Program-made: the position numbers and the translations under genes | Shown here: piece after piece, positions 21,277 through 62,385 of the stretch | How positions within the stretch are numbered: the first letter of the stretch is position 1 | Layout of the letters: each line of letters opens with the position of its first letter | The notes under the pieces: generated by a model | Seen by the model: the letters and a program-made list of their open reading frames with translations, nothing else | Databases searched by the model: none | What the model was told of the DNA's origin: nothing | Assembly: GCA_030418545.1 (NCBI GenBank) | Contig: QAIB01000005.1 | Span: forward strand, 248,001 to 312,000 | Direction: 5' to 3' | Source: Xenophilus aerolatus | GTDB lineage: Bacteria > Pseudomonadota > Gammaproteobacteria > Burkholderiales > Burkholderiaceae_C | Length of the DNA: 64,000 nt

Positions 21277-21280
21277 GTGT

Positions 21281-21343
21281 CATGAACGGAATCGGCCGCC
21301 AGGGCCCACCCTGCGGGCGCGTGCAGCTATCGATTTCGTAGCA
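21281..21343 (-). repeat. 63-bp dispersed repeat, copy 1
   Basis: On the minus strand it begins TGCTACGAAATCGATAGCTG and ends in a GGCGGCCGATTCCG-like tail. It starts 4 bp after the stop of the GAF gene and lies just beyond the 3' end of maiA on the other strand. Same length and layout as the other copies at 30.6, 37.9, 42.4, 54.4, 55.8 and 60.9 kb. Confidence 0.75.
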
Positions 21344-21368
21344 AAGAGTCCTGGGCTCGACGCCGGTA

Positions 21369-30604: not shown

Positions 30605-30608
30605 GGAA

Positions 30609-30671
30609 TGCTACTGATTTGATAGCTGCCCGCGCCCGTATGACGGGCGCTGCAGGCCGATTCGGCTCGAA
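30609..30671 (+). repeat. 63-bp dispersed repeat, copy 2
   Basis: Starts TGCTACTGATTTGATAGCTG and ends TTCGGCTCGAA. It fills nearly all of the 70-bp gap between the acyl-CoA dehydrogenase start and the tannase stop, inside an operon running on the other strand. Confidence 0.75.
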
Positions 30672-30674
30672 TAA

Positions 30675-37902: not shown

Positions 37903-37909
37903 GCGGATC

Positions 37910-37972
37910 TGCTATCGAAGGCATAGCTGTCCGCACAGGAGGGACGGGCGTCAGGCCCGGATTTCCTTCGGA
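37910..37972 (+). repeat. 63-bp dispersed repeat, copy 3
   Basis: Starts TGCTATCGAAGGCATAGCTG. It fills the gap between the amidohydrolase stop and the converging kefC-like gene and runs into the latter, so its far end encodes the last residues and the stop codon of that protein. Confidence 0.75.
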
Positions 37973-39816
37973 TCCTCGGCGTGCTCTTCGCGCAGCTCCG
38001 GGTCCCAGTGGCGGCCCGAGCGCTGCTGGCGCTGCTCGCGCTCGCGCGCCATCTGCTCCTCGAACTGCTGGCGCCCTTCCTTGGCCACCGCGATCAGCTT
38101 GGCGCGGTCCTTGTAGTGCGGGTAGCTGGCCTCCGCGATCTGGATGTTCCGGCGCCTGAAGCGCATGGCCGTCTCGCGTGCCTCGTGCGCCGGCCAGCCC
38201 AGCGACTCGAGCACCGAGCGGGCGCTGCGCAGCGAGGACTCGAACACCTCGCGCTCGGCCATGTCCACGCCACGGTCGCGCAGCTGGTAGTAGTGGCCCA
38301 TGTTGCGGGCGCGGGCGACGATCTTCGCCTGCGGGAAGTTCTCCTGCACCAGGTCGACGATCTCCATCGAGGTCTCGATCTCGTCCACCGCCACCACGAT
38401 GACCTTGGCCGTCGCGCCGCCGGCGATGCGCAGCAGGTCCAGGCGCGTCGCGTCGCCGTAGAAGACGCGAAAGCCGAACTCGCGCAGGCCCTCGACCGTG
38501 TCGGGGTCGTGGTCCAGCACCGTGACCCGCATGCCCTGCGACAGCAGCACCCGCCCGACGATCTGGCCGTAGCGGCCGAAGCCGCAGATCAGCACCTTCG
38601 CCTCCTGCTGCTCCGAGATCTCCTCCAGCTCGGTGGGCGGCTTCTCGCGGTAGCGCACCAGCACGTAGCGGTCGATGGCCACCAGCAGCAGCGGCGACAC
38701 CAGCATCGACAGCGCCACCGCGCCGATCAGCAGCGAGGTCGTCTCGGCCGGCAGCACCTGCGGGCCGGCGGCCTGGAACACGACGAAGGCGAATTCGCCC
38801 CCCTGCGCCAGCAGCAGCGTGAACACCGGCCGCTGCACCTTGGGTATGTCCATCGCCTTGGCCAGCAGGTAGATGACGACGAACTTCACCGCCATGAAGC
38901 CGAGCACCAGCGCGGCGATGAGCAGGGGGTGCGCGAGCACCACGCCGAAATCGATGCTCATGCCGACCGCGATGAAGAACAGCCCCAGCAGCAGCCCCTT
39001 GAAGGGCTCGATGTCGGTCTCGAGTTCGCGCCGGTACTCGCTCTCGGCCAGCAGCACGCCTGCGAGGAAGGCGCCCAGCGCCATCGACAGGCCCACGAAC
39101 TGCATCAGTGCCGCGATCGCCACCACCAGCAGCAGCGCGGTGGCGGTGAAGATCTCGGGCGTGTTGCTGCGCGCGATCCAGCGCAGCAGCGGGCGCAACA
39201 GCAGGCGGCCGCCGAGGATGATGCCGGCGATCACGCCGACGATCTTGGCGGCCTCGATGGCGCGGTCGGGCGCGGCGATGGGCACATGGTCGGTGCTGCC
39301 GGCGAGCAGGGGCAGCAGGGCGAGGATGGGAATGGCGGCCACGTCCTGGAACAGCAGGATCGAGAAGCCGGCCTGGCCGCTCGCGGTCTTGAGCAGGTTG
39401 CGCTCGCCGAACACCTGCAGCGCGATCGCGGTGGACGACAGCGCCAGCCCCAGCGACGCCACCAGCGACACGCGCCAGTCCACACCCAGCGCGCAGCCGA
39501 TGGCGAACAGCACCGCGGCGCAACCGAGCACCTGGGCCGTGCCCCAGCCGAAGATGGGCCGCCGCAGGTTCCACAGCCGCTTGGGCTCGAGTTCCAGGCC
39601 AACCAGGAAGAGCATCAGCACGACGCCGAACTCGGCGAAGTGCAGGACGTCCTCGACGCTGGACACCAGGCCCAGGCCCGAGGGGCCGATCGCGATGCCG
39701 GCCACCAGGTAGCCGATGATGGCGCCCAACCCCAGTGCGCGCGACAGCGGCACCACGATGACGGCGGCACTCAGGTAGATGAGGCTGTTGGTCAGCCAGG
39801 CGGGGGCGTGTTCCAT
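37951..39816 (-). CDS. KefC-type monovalent cation/H+ antiporter with RCK domain
   Basis: A 621-residue K+ efflux protein. About 12 membrane helices make a CPA2 exchanger domain with IGYLVAGIAIGPSGLGLV, ALSSTAIALQVF and LFFIAVGMSIDFG; then an RCK domain with the nucleotide motif ICGFGRYGQIVGRVLL and GDATRLDLLRIAG. A charged C-terminal tail (EEQMAREREQRQQRSGR) follows. It is preceded by a KefF-like gene whose stop overlaps its start (TGATG), matching the KefF-KefC pairing that protects cells from electrophiles by glutathione-gated K+ loss. That gating is known for E. coli and inferred here. Confidence 0.92.
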   Translation of the reverse strand: MEHAPAWLTNSLIYLSAAVIVVPLSRALGLGAIIGYLVAGIAIGPSGLGLVSSVEDVLHFAEFGVVLMLFLVGLELEPKRLWNLRRPIFGWGTAQVLGCAAVLFAIGCALGVDWRVSLVASLGLALSSTAIALQVFGERNLLKTASGQAGFSILLFQDVAAIPILALLPLLAGSTDHVPIAAPDRAIEAAKIVGVIAGIILGGRLLLRPLLRWIARSNTPEIFTATALLLVVAIAALMQFVGLSMALGAFLAGVLLAESEYRRELETDIEPFKGLLLGLFFIAVGMSIDFGVVLAHPLLIAALVLGFMAVKFVVIYLLAKAMDIPKVQRPVFTLLLAQGGEFAFVVFQAAGPQVLPAETTSLLIGAVALSMLVSPLLLVAIDRYVLVRYREKPPTELEEISEQQEAKVLICGFGRYGQIVGRVLLSQGMRVTVLDHDPDTVEGLREFGFRVFYGDATRLDLLRIAGGATAKVIVVAVDEIETSMEIVDLVQENFPQAKIVARARNMGHYYQLRDRGVDMAEREVFESSLRSARSVLESLGWPAHEARETAMRFRRRNIQIAEASYPHYKDRAKLIAVAKEGRQQFEEQMAREREQRQQRSGRHWDPELREEHAEDPKEIRA

Positions 39817-42300: not shown

Positions 42301-42402
42301 GGCGGACTCCTGGAAAGGTTGGACGAAGGGGCGTGGCGCACGGCGCGCCACCCTTGTCCATACGCCGCGGCCGCCGGTGCGGATTCAGCCGGGGAGGGTG
42401 TT

Positions 42403-42465
42403 TTCAAGCCAAATCGGCCGCAAGCCCTCGTCCTGCTTGCGCGAGCAGCTATGAATTTGATAGTG
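42403..42465 (-). repeat. 63-bp dispersed repeat, copy 4
   Basis: On the minus strand it runs from CACTATCAAATTCATAGCTG to GATTTGGCTTGAA. The TAG stop codon of trmL (42449-42451) is the TAG of the repeat's ATAGCTG motif, and the last few residues of TrmL come from the repeat. Confidence 0.75.
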
Positions 42466-42928
42466 GATCGCCGAAGCCGTTCTGCCGCCAGGCTTCGAAC
42501 ACCGTGACCGCGACGGCATTCGACAGGTTCAGGCTGCGCTGGCCCGGCCGCATCGGCAGGCGCAGCAGCTGGGCCGGCGGGAAGCGCTCGCGCAGCTCCG
42601 GCGCGAGGCCGCGCGTCTCGGCCCCGAACACCAGCCAGTCGCCGGGCTGGAAGGCCGTGCCGTGCACGCTGCCGGTGCCACGGGTGCTCAGGCCGAAGAC
42701 CCGCGCGGGATCGGGCCGGCAGGCGGCGAGGAAGGCGTTCCAGTCCGCATGGCGGCGCACCTCGGCGTACTCGTGGTAGTCGAGCCCGGCCCGGCGCAGC
42801 AGGCGGTCGTCCATCGAGAAGCCCAGCGGTTCGATCAGGTGCAAGTCGCAGCCGGTGTTGGCGGCGAGCCGGATCACGTTGCCGGTGTTGGGCGGGATCT
42901 CGGGCTCCACCAGGACGATGTGGAACAT
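42449..42928 (-). CDS. trmL: tRNA (cytidine/uridine-2'-O-)-methyltransferase TrmL
   Basis: A 159-residue SPOUT methyltransferase that 2'-O-methylates the wobble base of tRNA-Leu isoacceptors. The sequence MFHIVLVEPEIPPNTGNVIRLAANTG is split across the conserved N-P-x-N-x-G-N and R motifs; LVFGAETRGLAPEL and LPMRPGQRSLNLSNAVAV form the trefoil knot that binds S-adenosylmethionine. Length is normal for TrmL. Its C terminus, after the knot (NGFGDPLSNS), overlaps a dispersed repeat copy, an addition with no likely effect on the core. Confidence 0.94.
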   Translation of the reverse strand: MFHIVLVEPEIPPNTGNVIRLAANTGCDLHLIEPLGFSMDDRLLRRAGLDYHEYAEVRRHADWNAFLAACRPDPARVFGLSTRGTGSVHGTAFQPGDWLVFGAETRGLAPELRERFPPAQLLRLPMRPGQRSLNLSNAVAVTVFEAWRQNGFGDPLSNS

Positions 42929-54352: not shown

Positions 54353-54979
54353 ATGCACAAGCGAAATGCTCTTAAATTGATAGCTGGTGGCGCAGGCTGG
54401 GCGGGCGCTGCAAGCCTTTTCGGCTTCAGTCTCGCGGGCTGCAGCGAATCGAAGCCTACCTTCAACGCGGTCGACCTCACGGGCGCCGAATACGCCCGCG
54501 ACTTCAAGCTCACCGACATGAACGGCCAGGTGCGCACCCTGGGCAACTTCAAGGGCAAGGTGGTCGTCGTCTTCTTCGGCTATGCCCAGTGCCCGGACGT
54601 GTGCCCCACCACCATGACCGAGATGGCGCAGGTCAAGCAGAAGCTGGGCAAGGACGGCGACAAGCTGCAGGTGGTGTTCATCACCGTCGACCCCGAGCGC
54701 GACACGCCCGAGATCATGAAGGCGTACATGGGCGCCTTCGATCCGGCCTTCGTCGCCCTGATCCCCACGCCCGAGCAGCTCGCCGCCGTCGCGAAGGACT
54801 TCAAGGTCTACTACAAGAAGGTCGACGGCAAGACGCCCACCAGCTACTCGATGGACCACTCGGCCGCCCAGTACATCTACGACCCGCAAGGGCGCCTGCG
54901 CCTGTATGCGCGTTACGGCGCCGGGGTCGACCCGATGGTGGCAGACATCAAGGCGCTGCTGGCCTCCAGCGCGGCCTGA
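54353..54979 (+). CDS. SCO1/SenC-family copper chaperone lipoprotein
   Basis: A 208-residue lipoprotein that delivers copper to the CuA site of subunit II. The signal peptide ends with lipobox LAGC; the thioredoxin fold has the copper motif GYAQCPDVCPTT and the distal His in YSMDHSAAQYIYD. The hydrophobic core of the signal peptide (about residues 6-26) is encoded by a copy of the 63-bp dispersed repeat. It follows ctaB after a hairpin-containing gap and completes the oxidase assembly set. Confidence 0.94.
   Translation: MHKRNALKLIAGGAGWAGAASLFGFSLAGCSESKPTFNAVDLTGAEYARDFKLTDMNGQVRTLGNFKGKVVVVFFGYAQCPDVCPTTMTEMAQVKQKLGKDGDKLQVVFITVDPERDTPEIMKAYMGAFDPAFVALIPTPEQLAAVAKDFKVYYKKVDGKTPTSYSMDHSAAQYIYDPQGRLRLYARYGAGVDPMVADIKALLASSAA
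54367..54429 (+). repeat. 63-bp dispersed repeat, copy 5 (inside SCO signal peptide)
   Basis: Begins TGCTCTTAAATTGATAGCTG and ends CTTTTCGGCTTCAG. It aligns without gaps with copy 7 at 60896-60958 and is read in the same frame there. It encodes most of the SCO signal peptide. Confidence 0.8.
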
Positions 54980-54999: not shown

Positions 55000-55815
55000 A
55001 TGTCGGTCGAGCACCTGCGCGCGCGCAAGGGCGCGTTCCGCATCGCGCTGATCCCGCCCGAGGTGCTGGGCGCGCTGAACGACGGCCTGCTCGAAACCGT
55101 CAACCTCAACGAGTTCCTGGCCCTGGACACCCCGCGCCTGGCCCGCGCGGTGGCCGGGCAGATCGGGCTCGACCCCGCGCACGAGCGCCTGGCCGACACA
55201 CTGGCCATGCTCGACGCCTTCAAGCCCATGCAGCGCCACACGCACATCGCGCGGGCGCTGTACGACCTGACGGCCGCACACCCCGAGCGCGACGCCATCG
55301 CCCAACGCTTGGCCACGCATCCCAGCGATGTGGCGCGCAGCTGGGCCGTGCAGTGGGTGCAAGTCGCCGGCCTGCCGCTGGCAGCGCGCCTGCAGGCCGT
55401 GCGCCGCTTCGCCGCCGACCCGCACTTCGGCGTGCGCGAGTTCGCTTGGATGGCGGTGCGCGACGCCGTGATCGGCGATGTCGACGCCGCCATCGCCGCG
55501 CTCGTGCCCTGGACGGGCGATGTCGACGAGAACATCCGCCGCTTCACCAGCGAGCTGACGCGCCCGCGGGGCGTGTGGTGTGCGCCCATCCCGGCGCTGC
55601 AGCGCGAACCGTGGCGCGCACTGCCGCTGCTGGAGTTGCTGCGCGCCGATGGCAGCCGCTACGTGCAGAACTCGGTCGCCAACTGGCTCAACGACGCCAG
55701 CAAGGGACAGGGCCCGTGGGTGCAGGCCCTGGCAGAGCGCTGGCTGGCCGAGAGCGACACGCCGGCCACGCGCTACATCGTCAAGCGGGCGCTGCGGACG
55801 CTATCGAAACCATAG
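55000..55815 (+). CDS. HEAT-repeat protein of DNA alkylation repair (AlkD-like) type
   Basis: A 271-residue all-helical protein with repeated pairs such as FGVREFAWMAVRDAVIGDVDAAI and ENIRRFTSELTRPRGVWCAPI, characteristic of the AlkD-like DNA alkylation repair family (COG4335). Whether it is a glycosylase cannot be told; the motif STLTRPRG-like stretch with Trp is also found in members of unknown activity. Gene starts 20 bp after the SCO stop. Its last residues and stop (LSKP-stop) overlap a dispersed repeat copy. Confidence 0.82.
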   Translation: MSVEHLRARKGAFRIALIPPEVLGALNDGLLETVNLNEFLALDTPRLARAVAGQIGLDPAHERLADTLAMLDAFKPMQRHTHIARALYDLTAAHPERDAIAQRLATHPSDVARSWAVQWVQVAGLPLAARLQAVRRFAADPHFGVREFAWMAVRDAVIGDVDAAIAALVPWTGDVDENIRRFTSELTRPRGVWCAPIPALQREPWRALPLLELLRADGSRYVQNSVANWLNDASKGQGPWVQALAERWLAESDTPATRYIVKRALRTLSKP

Positions 55816-55862
55816 CTGCGTGGGCCCGATCGGTGGGCCTTGTGGCGTGATTTGGGCTTGAA
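55799..55862 (+). repeat. 63-bp dispersed repeat, copy 6
   Basis: Starts CGCTATCGAAACCATAGCTG and ends TTGGGCTTGAA, one base longer than the other copies. Its left part encodes the last five codons of the HEAT-repeat protein including the stop (TAG). Confidence 0.75.
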
Positions 55863-55864
55863 CG

Positions 55865-55982
55865 CGGACTCCCGTACGCGAAGGGCGCAAAGGTTTCGCG
55901 AAGGACGCGAAGAAACATCCTTTCTTGGATTTCCTTTTGCGTCCTTCGCGTGACTTTCGCGCCCTTCGCGTACGGGAGTCCG
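55865..55982. repeat. Long inverted repeat downstream of the HEAT-repeat gene
   Basis: The left arm (about 55865-55911) begins CGGACTCCCGTACGCGAAGG and the right arm (about 55937-55982) is its near complement ending CCTTCGCGTACGGGAGTCCG. Repeated CGCGAAGG / CCTTCGCG motifs occur several times in each arm. The spacer of about 25 bases is AT-rich. The element lies between two converging genes and has no coding potential. Confidence 0.8.
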
Positions 55983-55986
55983 AATT

Positions 55987-56014
55987 GAAAAAGCCCGGCA
56001 CAGGGCCGGGCTCT
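55987..56014 (-). terminator. Intrinsic terminator of rpoH
   Basis: AGCCCGGC (55992-55999) pairs with GCCGGGCT (56005-56012) around a five-base loop; on the minus strand the hairpin is followed by a T tract. It starts 23 bp after the rpoH stop codon. Confidence 0.85.
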
Positions 56015-59415: not shown

Positions 59416-60876
59416 ATGAAACACCCCTCGCCACGCCGTTTCACGGCCGGCGTGGCGCTGCTGGCGGCCCTGGCCGGTCCGCTCGCGTCCGTCGCGCTCG
59501 CCCAGGCTCCGTCGCCCTCCCCGACGCCGGCCGCCCCGTCCTCCCTTCCCACCGCGTCCGTCAAGCCCGTCCAGTACACCCTGGCCAACGGCATGACGCT
59601 GATCGTCCAGCCCGACCGGCGCGCCCCCACCGCGGTGCAGATGCTGTGGGTGCGCGTGGGTTCGGTCGACGAGGTGGACGGCACCTCGGGCGTGGCCCAC
59701 GTGCTCGAACACATGATGTTCAAGGGCACGGCCACGCTCAAGCCAGGCGAGTTCTCACGCCGCGTGGCCGCGCTGGGCGGGCGCGAGAACGCCTTCACCA
59801 CCCGCGACTACACCGGCTACTACCAGCAGATCCCGGCCGAGAGGCTGGAAGACGTGATGAAGCTGGAGTCCGACCGCTTCGCCCACAACCAGTGGCCCGA
59901 CGACGAGTTCAAGCGCGAACTGGAGGTGGTGAAGGAAGAGCGCCGCATGCGCACCGAGGACCAGCCGCGCGCCCTCCTGGGCGAGCAGCAGAACGCGGCC
60001 GTGTTCATCGCCTCGCCCTACCACCGCCCGGTGGTCGGCTGGATGAGCGACCTCGACGCCATGACGCCGCAGGACGCGCGCGCCTTCTTCCAGCGCTGGT
60101 ACGTGCCGGCCAACGCCGCCGTGGTGGTGGCGGGCGACGTCGACCCCGAGCGCGTCCGCGCCCTGGCGGAGAAGTACTACGGCGGCATCCCCGCGCGCGC
60201 GGTGCCCGAGCGCAAGCCGCGCACCGAGCCGCCGCAGCGCGGCATCCGCCGCATCGAGTTCAAGGCCCCGGCCGAGCAGGCCTACGTGTCGCTGGCCTTC
60301 CGGGTGCCGCAGATGGAGCAACTCGACAGCCCCACCGACGCCTGGGCGCTGGTGGTGCTGTCGGCGGTGCTCGACGGCTACACCGGCTCGCGCCTCGACC
60401 GCACGCTCACGCAGGGCCCGGGCCGCGTGGCCGACAGCGTCGGTGCCGGCTACGGCTTTGCCGGCCGCGGGCCGCAGCTGTTCCAGCTGGTCGGCGTGCC
60501 AGCCGCCGGCCAGACCACCGAGACGGTCGAGGCGGCGCTGCGCGCCCAGGTCGCGCGCATCGCCAAGGAGGGCGTGGGCGCCGCGGAGCTGGCCCGGGTC
60601 AAGACGCAATGGGTGGCCAGCGAGACCTACAAGCGCGATTCGGTCATGGCCCAGGCGCGCGAACTCGGCAGCAACTGGGTGCAGGGGCTGCCGCTGGATG
60701 CGAGCGAACGCATCGTCAAGCACCTGCTGGCCGTCACGCCCGAACAGGTGCAGGCGGTGGCCGCCAAGTACTTCGGCGACGACCAGCTCACCGTCGCCAC
60801 GCTGCGGCCCCTGCCCATCGACCCGAACGCCCGGCGCGGCCGCGGTTTCGCCGCCCCGCAGGGAGAGATGCGATGA
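59416..60876 (+). CDS. M16 family zinc metallopeptidase, catalytic subunit
   Basis: A 486-residue pitrilysin-type protease. The signal peptide (FTAGVALLAALAGPLASVALAQA) exports it; the zinc motif is HVLEHMMFKG (His95, Glu98, His99) with the distal Glu in ELEVVKEERRMR. Two M16 halves (N and C) are recognisable, the C half having lower conservation. It forms an operon with a second M16 protein that lacks the zinc motif; such pairs form a heterodimer. Divergent from ftsY, the usual betaproteobacterial order. Confidence 0.93.
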   Translation: MKHPSPRRFTAGVALLAALAGPLASVALAQAPSPSPTPAAPSSLPTASVKPVQYTLANGMTLIVQPDRRAPTAVQMLWVRVGSVDEVDGTSGVAHVLEHMMFKGTATLKPGEFSRRVAALGGRENAFTTRDYTGYYQQIPAERLEDVMKLESDRFAHNQWPDDEFKRELEVVKEERRMRTEDQPRALLGEQQNAAVFIASPYHRPVVGWMSDLDAMTPQDARAFFQRWYVPANAAVVVAGDVDPERVRALAEKYYGGIPARAVPERKPRTEPPQRGIRRIEFKAPAEQAYVSLAFRVPQMEQLDSPTDAWALVVLSAVLDGYTGSRLDRTLTQGPGRVADSVGAGYGFAGRGPQLFQLVGVPAAGQTTETVEAALRAQVARIAKEGVGAAELARVKTQWVASETYKRDSVMAQARELGSNWVQGLPLDASERIVKHLLAVTPEQVQAVAAKYFGDDQLTVATLRPLPIDPNARRGRGFAAPQGEMR

Positions 60877-62288
60877 ACCGCCCCACACTTTCGTTTGCTA
60901 TGAAAAATGTAGCTGTTCACGCAGCACTGGCGGCGGCTGCAGCCCTTTTCGGCTTGAATGCGCAGGCCGGCGTGCCGATCGAGCGCTGGCAGCTGTCCAA
61001 CGGCGCGCAGGTCTACATGGCGGCGACCGACGCGCTGCCGATCGTCGACGTGCAGATCGACTTCGACGCCGGCAGTCGGCGCGACCCGCCCGCGCAGGCG
61101 GGTCTGGCCGGCGTGACGGCCGGCATGGTCGAGAAGGGCGTGAAAGGCGAGGGCTGCCGCCCGCCGGTGGGCAATGCGCCCGCCGCGTGCGCCACGCCGG
61201 CCCTCGACCAGAACCAGCTCGGCGAAGCTTGGGCCGACCTGGGGGCCGAGTTCGACGTCGGCGCCAGCGCCGACCGCATGAGCTTCACGCTGCGCAGCCT
61301 GGCCGACCCGGCGCTGCTGGCCAAGGCCGTGGCGCTGGCCGCGCGCGAGATCGGCGAGCCGTCCTTCCCCGACGACGTGTGGCAGCGCGAGCGCGAGCGT
61401 CTGTCCGCCGCCATCCGCGAGAGCAACACCAAGCCCGGCACGATCGCCAGCCGCACCTTCGGCCGCGACGTGTACGGCGGCCATCCCTACGGCGACGACG
61501 CGACCGAGGCCACGCTGGCCGCGATTTCCACCGCCGACATGCGCGCGCGCTACGCCCAGACCATCCTGCCGTGCCGGGCCAAGCTCACGGTGGTGGGCGC
61601 CGTCACCCGCGTGCAGGCCGAGCGCATCGCTACCGACCTGCTGGCGCGGCTGCCGGCGACGAATGGCGCCTGCCCCGCGCTGCCGCCCGTGGCCGAAGTG
61701 CCGCCACTCGCCAAGGCCGTCGTCGAACGCATCCCCTTCGACTCGGCGCAGGCCCACGTGTTCATCGGCCAGCCCGGCTATGCACGCCGCAACCCCGACC
61801 ACTTCGCGCTCACGCTGGGCAACTACATCCTGGGCGGTGGCGGATTCGTCTCGCGCCTGACGGACGAGGTGCGCGAGAAGCGCGGGCTGGCCTACAGCGT
61901 CTACAGCGGCTTCTCGCCGGGGCTGCATGCGGGCGCCTTCCGCGTCGGCTTCCAGACCCGGCCCGACCAGGCCGACGAAGCCGTGAAGGTGGCGCAGGAC
62001 GTGCTCGCGAAGTTCGTCGCCGACGGCCCGACCGAGGCCGAACTCAAGGCCGCCAAGGACAACCTCATCGGCGGCTTCCCGCTGCTCATGGACAGCAACC
62101 GCAAGCTGCTGGGCAACGTCGCCAACATCGCCTGGAACGACCTGCCGCTGGATTACCTCGACACCTGGACGGCGAAGATGAATGCGGTGACCGTGGCCGA
62201 CATCAAGGCCGCTTTTGCGCGCACGCTGCAGCCGCAGAAGATGGTGACGGTGGTGGTGGGCGGCGCCGAGCCATCCGCCAAAAAGTAG
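60873..62288 (+). CDS. M16 family protein, non-catalytic partner
   Basis: A 471-residue exported M16-like protein. Where the catalytic partner has HxxEH this one reads LAGVTAGMVEKG, so it cannot bind zinc. It keeps the C-terminal R/Y-type site region (REKRGLAYSVYSGFSP) that closes over the substrate in the partner. The start at 60873 overlaps the upstream stop as ATGA. The signal peptide core (about residues 9-29, from FAMKNVAVHAAL to LNAQA) is encoded by a copy of the 63-bp dispersed repeat. An alternative ATG at 60900 is inside the repeat itself. Confidence 0.92.
   Translation: MNRPTLSFAMKNVAVHAALAAAAALFGLNAQAGVPIERWQLSNGAQVYMAATDALPIVDVQIDFDAGSRRDPPAQAGLAGVTAGMVEKGVKGEGCRPPVGNAPAACATPALDQNQLGEAWADLGAEFDVGASADRMSFTLRSLADPALLAKAVALAAREIGEPSFPDDVWQRERERLSAAIRESNTKPGTIASRTFGRDVYGGHPYGDDATEATLAAISTADMRARYAQTILPCRAKLTVVGAVTRVQAERIATDLLARLPATNGACPALPPVAEVPPLAKAVVERIPFDSAQAHVFIGQPGYARRNPDHFALTLGNYILGGGGFVSRLTDEVREKRGLAYSVYSGFSPGLHAGAFRVGFQTRPDQADEAVKVAQDVLAKFVADGPTEAELKAAKDNLIGGFPLLMDSNRKLLGNVANIAWNDLPLDYLDTWTAKMNAVTVADIKAAFARTLQPQKMVTVVVGGAEPSAKK
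60896..60958 (+). repeat. 63-bp dispersed repeat, copy 7 (inside M16 signal peptide)
   Basis: Begins TGCTATGAAAAATGTAGCTG and ends CTTTTCGGCTTGAA. It aligns without gaps to copy 5 in the SCO gene and is read in the same phase. It supplies the alanine-rich hydrophobic core of the signal peptide. Confidence 0.8.
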
Positions 62289-62385
62289 GACCTGCTTTCG
62301 TCATCCCGCCAAGGGAACCGGGCCACGACGCCCGCCTGGCGGGCGCATCCGGCCATCGATGTCGTGGTGAAGTGGATGGCCTGCT

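Follow-up and report, generated by a model that had tools for sequence, protein, structure and literature searches.

A palindromic repeat forms putative signal peptides in Xenophilus and other Comamonadaceae, probably through ancient recruitment and concerted evolution

Here, we propose that a palindromic repeat of about 65 nt, dispersed through genomes of the Comamonadaceae, was probably recruited long ago as the signal peptide of several exported proteins and has since evolved in concert with the local repeats of each genus. The case concerns a stretch of 64,000 nt from a Xenophilus genome (G000, the host genome), namely positions 248,001 to 312,000 of contig QAIB01000005.1 in assembly GCA_030418545.1, which we call the window. 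In this window one copy of the repeat lies at the start of the second of two adjacent M16 peptidase genes and another at the start of a SCO1/SenC gene; a third gene of the host, SIMPL, likewise carries a copy at its start. The proposal is based on these copies, on their shared reading frame and register, on variants that match the genus in Xenophilus and Acidovorax, and on the persistence of the peptides where the repeat has decayed.

Results

The repeat reads GCTAYnnnWWnnATAGCTG, followed by an arm pair GCGC(CC/AG)G...CGGGCGC and then by GCAGGCC(G/T)(A/T)TTCGGCTT. An earlier note on the window had claimed that two unrelated exported proteins, M16 and SCO, share a hydrophobic core derived from it, and the claim holds for at least three (M16, SCO, and SIMPL), all in the same frame. 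As the note also had it, the M16 and SCO copies can be aligned gap-free (45 of 66 bases are identical) and are read alike, opening with the codons GCT-xxx-AAA and closing with CTT-TTC-GGC. The M16 copy is a genuine member of the family, as it is recognised by R1, a covariance model made from 30 other host-genome copies with the SCO and M16 copies excluded (Table 1). The span given earlier for it (60873..60958) does contain a copy, but the extent is about 60893-60960, so that the repeat begins only after the first 20 bases of the gene.

The M16 gene starts with an ATG at 60873 with GGAGA upstream, and its product begins with MNRPTLSFAMKNVAVHAALAAAAALFGLNAQA followed, after the predicted cleavage point, by GVPIERW..., the AQA/GVPIERW junction being conserved in G040, G013, G012, G002, G008 (X. 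aerolatus), and G005 (X. azovorans). Orthologous M16 copies score 65.0 bits in G012, 48.3 in G002, 36.3 in G008, and 31.6 in G013, and M16 and SCO copies are seen in 5 Xenophilus genomes besides the host. Signal peptides were judged by a crude heuristic (positive n-region, hydrophobic core, AXA or lipobox) and not by SignalP; by this measure M16 has 2 K/R, a hydropathy of 2.20, and AQA, and SCO has 3 K/R, a hydropathy of 1.56, and LAGC. Judged from these sequences, both proteins would be exported by way of repeat-derived signal peptides.

Gene starts across the family were then scored with a 41-nt matrix of Xenophilus copies and a cut-off of >10 bits, up to 400 sampled host gene starts serving as the null (99th percentile -6.2, maximum -1.8). 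Among 80 M16 loci, the cut-off was exceeded in 4/4 repeat-rich Xenophilus, 1/1 X. aerolatus, 3/3 Rhodoferax, 2/2 Acidovorax, 3/6 Polaromonas, 1/4 Ramlibacter, 1/5 other metagenome-assembled genomes (MAGs), and 1/51 Variovorax, and in none of the single loci of X. azovorans, Xenophilus Q4582, Hydrogenophaga, and Xylophilus (0/1 each). Among 47 SCO loci, it was exceeded in 2/2 Xenophilus, 1/1 X. aerolatus, 1/1 Acidovorax, 1/3 Ramlibacter, and 4/33 Variovorax, and not in X. azovorans or Xylophilus (0/1 each). By eye, the SIMPL start is repeat-like in Xenophilus, Polaromonas G043, Acidovorax G042, Rhodoferax G046, G023, and G017, and more weakly in Rhodoferax G045. Outside the family, M16 orthologues are present in 38 of 58 genomes; upstream of 28 of these other-family orthologues and of one in G085, a member of the Comamonadaceae, the matrix gave nothing above 0 (best -7.3, median -22.8), and the signal peptides of the other-family proteins look ordinary.

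In all genera with a copy, the reading frame of the repeat is identical across M16, SCO, and SIMPL, and the distance to the mature protein is nearly fixed. For M16, the ATA/GTA codon lies 23 codons from the mature Pro codon in 5/5 Xenophilus and 24 codons in 15/16 other loci (two of them Variovorax), with 27 in MAG L302. For SIMPL the distance is 16 codons wherever the start is repeat-like, and for SCO it is 21 codons in Xenophilus and Variovorax L288 and 17 in Acidovorax and Ramlibacter.

The coding copies match the repeat variant of their own genus in Xenophilus and Acidovorax, the two genera for which own-genus matrices were made (152-156 Xenophilus copies; 40 Acidovorax copies, drawn from 139 matches in G041 and G042 with M16 and SCO excluded). 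As log-likelihood ratios between the two matrices, the Acidovorax copies give +27.0 and +33.1 (M16), +35.8 (SCO), and +13.2 bits (SIMPL), and the Xenophilus copies -25.8 and -19.4, -23.2, and -7.6 bits; the Xenophilus M16 and SCO copies span -12 to -29 bits. For comparison, the repeat copies of the two genera have leave-one-out means of +31 (Acidovorax) and -26 (Xenophilus). All of these coding copies but one lie 1.1-2.7 standard deviations (sd) beyond their letter shuffles; the exception is Xenophilus SIMPL, at 0.4 sd. On the same scale the coding copies of Rhodoferax, Polaromonas, and Ramlibacter are mixed (-17 to +9).

A comparison of 21 coding copies (M16, SCO, and SIMPL in five genera) gives 69.9% identity between different genes of the same genus (21 pairs) and 61.2% between the same gene of different genera (71 pairs), the latter close to the 60.2% where both differ (98 pairs), a result that no label permutation reached (0/3000, p=0.0003). 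In the hairpin part alone the three values are 68.8, 48.6, and 50.3%. A first run with 13 copies, in which the two Rhodoferax copies came from different genomes, had given 75.8, 66.4, and 65.5% in the same order; the difference survives removal of any one genus, and composition-preserving shuffles of the hairpin letters were never as high (0/5000). The 21-copy set leaves out M16 of L302, L303, and L317 (no partner) and of L311 (Ramlibacter, weak), SIMPL of G023 and G017 (no partner genus) and of G041 and G047 (not repeat-like), Variovorax, and further Xenophilus genomes; since these omissions favour repeat-like copies, the test tells how such copies vary and not how frequent they are.

Where the repeat is decayed or not visible, one still finds similar peptides, for the most part recoded. 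In Variovorax the R1 search of 51 loci found only 4 matches, all on SCO signal peptides: in each of these four loci the sole match, which is GC-rich, sits exactly on the peptide and in register, and this coincidence led us to reject the idea that they are false positives. Variovorax also has, by eye, a recoded SIMPL signal peptide. The SCO signal peptide of X. azovorans shares 50 of 78 bases with that of the host (20, 19, and 11 of 26 at the three codon positions), a pattern that fits protein-level constraint with recoded third positions. In the 70-kb X. aerolatus stretch that holds most of the synteny with the window, the two clear matches are those of SCO (44.7 bits) and M16 (36.3 bits); there is one further partial match of 21 bits, and the alignable intergenic sites are decayed or unlike the repeat. 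That X. aerolatus keeps signal-peptide copies only is true of the clear matches in this stretch and false genome-wide, as the genome retains many copies in decayed form (E<=1 for 142 of the 150 candidates scored). We also dropped the idea that the repeat was inserted within Xenophilus, replacing a non-repeat signal peptide kept in X. azovorans, because the X. azovorans and Variovorax peptides resemble recoded relatives and X. azovorans has remnant copies (18 R1 matches at E<=1, about ten of them convincing).

Why this frame? Among 167 full copies of >=25 bits in the host, surveyed for a 12-residue window with mean hydropathy >=1.6 and controlled by dinucleotide shuffles, sense f1 is open in 82% and hydrophobic in 9% (shuffles 3%), which agrees with the earlier suggestion that one frame is predisposed to encode a secretion signal. 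It is not the only such frame, as antisense f2 is open in 83% and hydrophobic in 7% (shuffles 0.8%) and is used by BamB and a TonB receptor. The other four frames reach 0%, and the shuffles as a whole range over 0.7-4%. There is little freedom in the choice of frame, since sense f2 and antisense f0 are hardly ever open (4% and 11% of copies). The consensus copy has an Arg within the core and is not signal-like, and non-exported proteins are hit as well. Several of the most hydrophobic copies are intergenic, so that the hydrophobicity belongs to the repeat in general and is not confined to selected copies.

N-terminal copies in the host were collected by eye, with names from Pfam and NCBIfam. 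Sense f1 begins SCO, M16, SIMPL, a UgpB-like binding protein, and MltB (weak, 25 bits); antisense f2 begins BamB and the TonB receptor; and sense f0 begins a GDPD lipoprotein and perhaps an outer-membrane efflux lipoprotein. The antisense copy of BamB was seen only in G000, G012, G002, and G008 among 15 genomes, and a similar peptide is present in X. azovorans and Variovorax (both by eye). The non-exported hits are CysN, a methyltransferase, and a SulP permease of uncertain start. The cytosolic CysN (G000:C22:795921-795988) appears to start just 5' of a sense f1 copy (MTTATKSIAAPAGAAGAAGTFGSEPT...); here the frame would serve a protein that is not exported. In X. aerolatus, L194 and L197 have repeat-derived hydrophobic N-termini on what we take to be membrane transporters.

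The excess of copies at exported N-termini that the earlier note expected was not significant in a blind count: a start caller that took no account of export gave 12 N-terminal fusions, of which 4 are signal-like, against 362 of 1749 genes (20.7%; p=0.22). This caller missed SCO, SIMPL, BamB, and the TonB receptor, and with these four added (no longer blind) 9 of 16 are exported, including the efflux lipoprotein, which the heuristic had scored as not signal-like. An excess in the host genome is no more than suggested by these counts. The four blind-fused signal peptides have a G+C content at third codon positions of 0.46-0.73, against 0.87 +- 0.09 in other signal-like genes (p=7e-4).

In the host as a whole, a strict pattern matched the repeat 119 times and its reversed control 0 times, and R1 at E<=0.1 found 137 copies in 1.264 Mb and 59 in a further 0.8 Mb. 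As these 196 matches come from about one third of the genome (2.06 Mb), we extrapolate to a few hundred copies per genome. Genes were called with our own script on draft genomes, so that some calls may be false. Of the 181 copies of >=25 bits, 140 have their centre in a gap and 41 in a called gene. The gaps are convergent in 46 cases (19 expected by length), tandem in 85 (85), and divergent in 9 (36; p=4e-13). Stop codons lie at a median distance of 8 nt (<=20 nt in 96/131), and copies in tandem gaps show no orientation bias (44/41). The TAG of the repeat itself (model positions 18-20) is the stop codon of 9 genes, and 41 called genes terminate within the 181 copies, which lie in C11 and C22 of G000 and in the window (for example 42401-42468, -); the repeat thus also supplies C-terminal ends.

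As the copies hug stop codons and favour convergent gaps, their placement resembles that of repetitive extragenic palindromic (REP) elements, and the repeat is, like them, abundant, short, extragenic, and palindromic. Over 30 copies, the arms GCTAY/RTAGC pair in 88.7% of cells and GCGCCCG/CGGGCGC in 85.7%; a third candidate stem pairs in only 42.5%, and covariation in the stems of these copies is not above shuffles. A reading of the repeat as an RNA structure was dropped, as RNAalifold gave an odd structure for R1 and the pair counts showed no covariation. Of five stretches folded, the intergenic copy at 30606 folded better than its shuffles (z -2.97). Rfam had 0 matches in the window at the gathering score.

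Strict matches number 168-215 in three of 13 congeners and 0-6 in the other ten, and 11-51 in four of ten other genera of the family and 0-3 in the other six. A strict 41-nt pattern was positive in 4 of 12 genomes, with 72 and 67 matches in the two Acidovorax (G041 and G042), 20 in Ramlibacter G047, and 3 in Polaromonas G043; it gave 0 in two Variovorax (G051 and G052).

Discussion

How might an intergenic repeat have come to begin three unrelated exported proteins? We infer a direction from repeat to signal peptide: the repeat, REP-like in its placement, would have entered M16, SCO1/SenC, and SIMPL early in the family and supplied, or rather replaced, the signal peptides of proteins that were already exported. 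The recruited frame would have been the one sense frame both open and rich in Ala and Leu, and selection on the protein may then have preserved the hydrophobicity and a lysine-bearing n-region, while exchange with dispersed copies kept rewriting the coding DNA alongside the repeats of each genus. The route of exchange is most likely gene conversion or repeated replacement in place; the data fit either. Where the family decayed, the signal peptides would have been left as protein-level fossils with codons mostly recoded. More tentatively, and leaning slightly against it ourselves, we consider that ongoing exchange overwrites a common set of signal peptides in each genus with the repeat variant of that genus, so that orthologous peptides diverge and paralogous ones stay alike.

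Several observations weigh against ancient recruitment followed by concerted evolution. M-KKIA starts are common in signal peptides, and protein-level likeness alone is therefore weak in Variovorax M16. The strict 41-nt pattern gave 0 in two Rhodoferax, Polaromonas G044, Ramlibacter G048, Xylophilus, and Hydrogenophaga, a zero that is not proof of absence, as these genera may have repeat variants of their own. SCO is not repeat-like in Polaromonas (0/5), SIMPL is not repeat-like by eye in Acidovorax G041 or Ramlibacter G047, and the SCO register is shifted by 4 codons between Xenophilus and Acidovorax/Ramlibacter. SIMPL fits the genus variant poorly (Xenophilus -7.6 vs a shuffle value of -4.4 +- 8.9; Acidovorax +13.2 vs 2.4 +- 9.5), and the Xenophilus M16 of G012 is just 1.5 sd past its shuffle. 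The coding copies were hand-picked as still repeat-like and their pairs are non-independent, and the SCO and M16 copies of the window fold no better than shuffles (z -0.67 and +0.27). Conversion, finally, we infer and do not see directly, and the loose constraint on signal peptides lets fresh local replacement fit equally.

That last point leads to an alternative in which the repeat was re-inserted recently and independently in each genus, surviving since signal peptides tolerate replacement, with no concerted evolution needed. It would explain why coding copies match the genus variant, why copies occur at other N-termini too, and why the SCO registers are 4 codons apart. Independent insertions should vary in register, however, and the same frame and near-identical codon distances of M16 and SIMPL count against it, as do the fossil SCO copies in four Variovorax loci without any other R1 match; we regard it as unlikely. 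It is distinctly improbable, in our judgement, that these are ordinary palindromic repeats that sometimes run into genes, with neither bias nor concerted evolution, the likeness being due to composition and to M-KKIA starts. The unenriched blind count (4/12), the cytosolic CysN, and a SIMPL close to composition shuffles all speak for such an account, but composition-preserving shuffles never reach the same-genus likeness (0/5000), and M16 and SCO in Xenophilus (not X. azovorans) and Acidovorax score 27-52 bits with their own-genus matrix, against a null maximum of -1.8.

We give still less credence to a reverse origin, in which the family was born from signal-peptide coding DNA (of SCO or M16, for example) and then spread, the coding frame being the original one. 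An open and Ala-rich sense f1 speaks for it, as do signal-peptide fossils at loci without any other visible copy; against it, three unrelated genes carry the repeat, the consensus copy with its Arg in the core is not signal-like, and most copies are intergenic and near 3' ends. We therefore keep to ancient recruitment followed by concerted evolution as the probable reading. If true, a non-coding repeat family shapes protein N-termini across a whole bacterial family, provides a traceable route for the replacement of signal peptides, and offers a natural experiment on the amount of sequence change that a signal peptide can bear. Odd low-GC N-termini and start-site misannotation in these genomes may be further consequences.

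Palindromic repeats read in frame within protein genes are familiar from the Rickettsia palindromic elements, which are internal in-frame insertions and are not known as N-terminal signals. A literature search, largely without subscription papers, found no report of the family-wide pattern described here. The repeat itself is very probably already in print, as a pair of potential novel motifs: Table 7 of PMC5217627 gives GCTTAT(N)5AAGCG for Acidovorax ebreus and ATAGCT(N)22CAAAAG for Polaromonas naphthalenivorans, with 114 and 125 copies that are mostly intergenic, often between convergent genes, and close to gene ends. Going by motif letters and spacing alone, these very probably belong to the same repeat family; the A. 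ebreus motif matches copies found with our strict 41-nt pattern letter for letter and the P. naphthalenivorans motif agrees in its first word and spacing. The section that presents them is silent on signal peptides, frames, and concerted evolution (PMC5217627). In enterobacteria, the small repeats RU-1, RU-2, and RU-3 have open frames fused to genes, and RU-2 contributes part of the signal peptide predicted for YPO1552 (Delihas 2007, PMC2759123). They differ from the present repeat in being 103-168 bp long, similar to miniature inverted-repeat transposable elements, and in being single-gene cases; the signal sequences of the orthologues in other genera bear no relation to RU-2, and the RU passages contain no concerted evolution (PMC2759123).

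With REP elements and their associated transposases (RAYT), the repeat shares its hundreds of copies, its hairpins, and its intergenic preference for 3' ends. The host has a Y1_Tnp (RAYT-like) gene at G000:C32:153635-153961, and Y1_Tnp was found in 20 of 21 Comamonadaceae genomes, one in each and five in G043; scores are lower in G005, G006, and G001, and G003 has none, all four being repeat-poor. Here the likeness ends, as Y1_Tnp also occurs in G051 and G052, the two Variovorax genomes that lack strict matches, and the sole R1 match within about 1 kb of the host gene has 10.6 bits (E 0.29), that is, no flanking repeat. We therefore rejected a RAYT link, Y1_Tnp being neither flanked by the repeat nor tracking its distribution.

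Other features of the window

The R1 search found 8 intact or decayed copies in the window at E<=0.001 (Table 1). Against congeners, these mostly fall on aligned sites where the sequence has been replaced or has decayed; at 21279, X. aerolatus has 54 nt fewer, and the site there may be either empty or deleted.

Table 1. Copies of the repeat in the window and associated genes.
Feature	Coordinates	Strand	Evidence
Repeat copy in M16 signal peptide, sense frame f1	60893..60960	+	R1 33.0 bits, E 6.8e-7; copy not in model
Second M16 gene, P0001, 471 aa	60873..62288	+	Pfam PF05193 (M16_C) E 6.6e-38, PF00675 (Peptidase_M16) E 6.6e-6
Putative Sec signal peptide of M16 protein, cleavage after AQA	60873..60968	+	Sequence; junction conserved in 6 genomes
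Repeat copy in SCO1/SenC signal peptide, sense frame f1	54364..54431	+	R1 62.3 bits, E 3.4e-15; copy not in model
SCO1/SenC gene, P0002, 208 aa, lipobox-like LAGC	54353..54979	+	Pfam PF02630 E 2.1e-46
First M16 gene, immediately 5' of second M16 gene	59416..60876	+	Pfam PF00675 E 3e-24, PF05193 E 9.2e-32
Intergenic copy, near consensus	30606..30673	+	R1 82.0 bits; copy included in model
Copy overlapping 3' end of called gene	42401..42468	-	R1 53.6 bits
Copy in convergent gap	21279..21346	-	R1 50.4 bits
Copy in convergent gap	37907..37974	+	R1 29.9 bits
Decayed copy	55796..55863	+	R1 23.5 bits; orthologous copy in G012 52.9 bits
Decayed copy	62305..62372	-	R1 25.5 bits; orthologous copy in G012 55.3 bits

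A scan of viral contigs with the M16 protein found no relatives. The window also contains, at 55858-55989, a 63-nt inverted repeat with arms 81% complementary and 6 nt apart, which overlaps the final bases of the decayed copy at 55796-55863.

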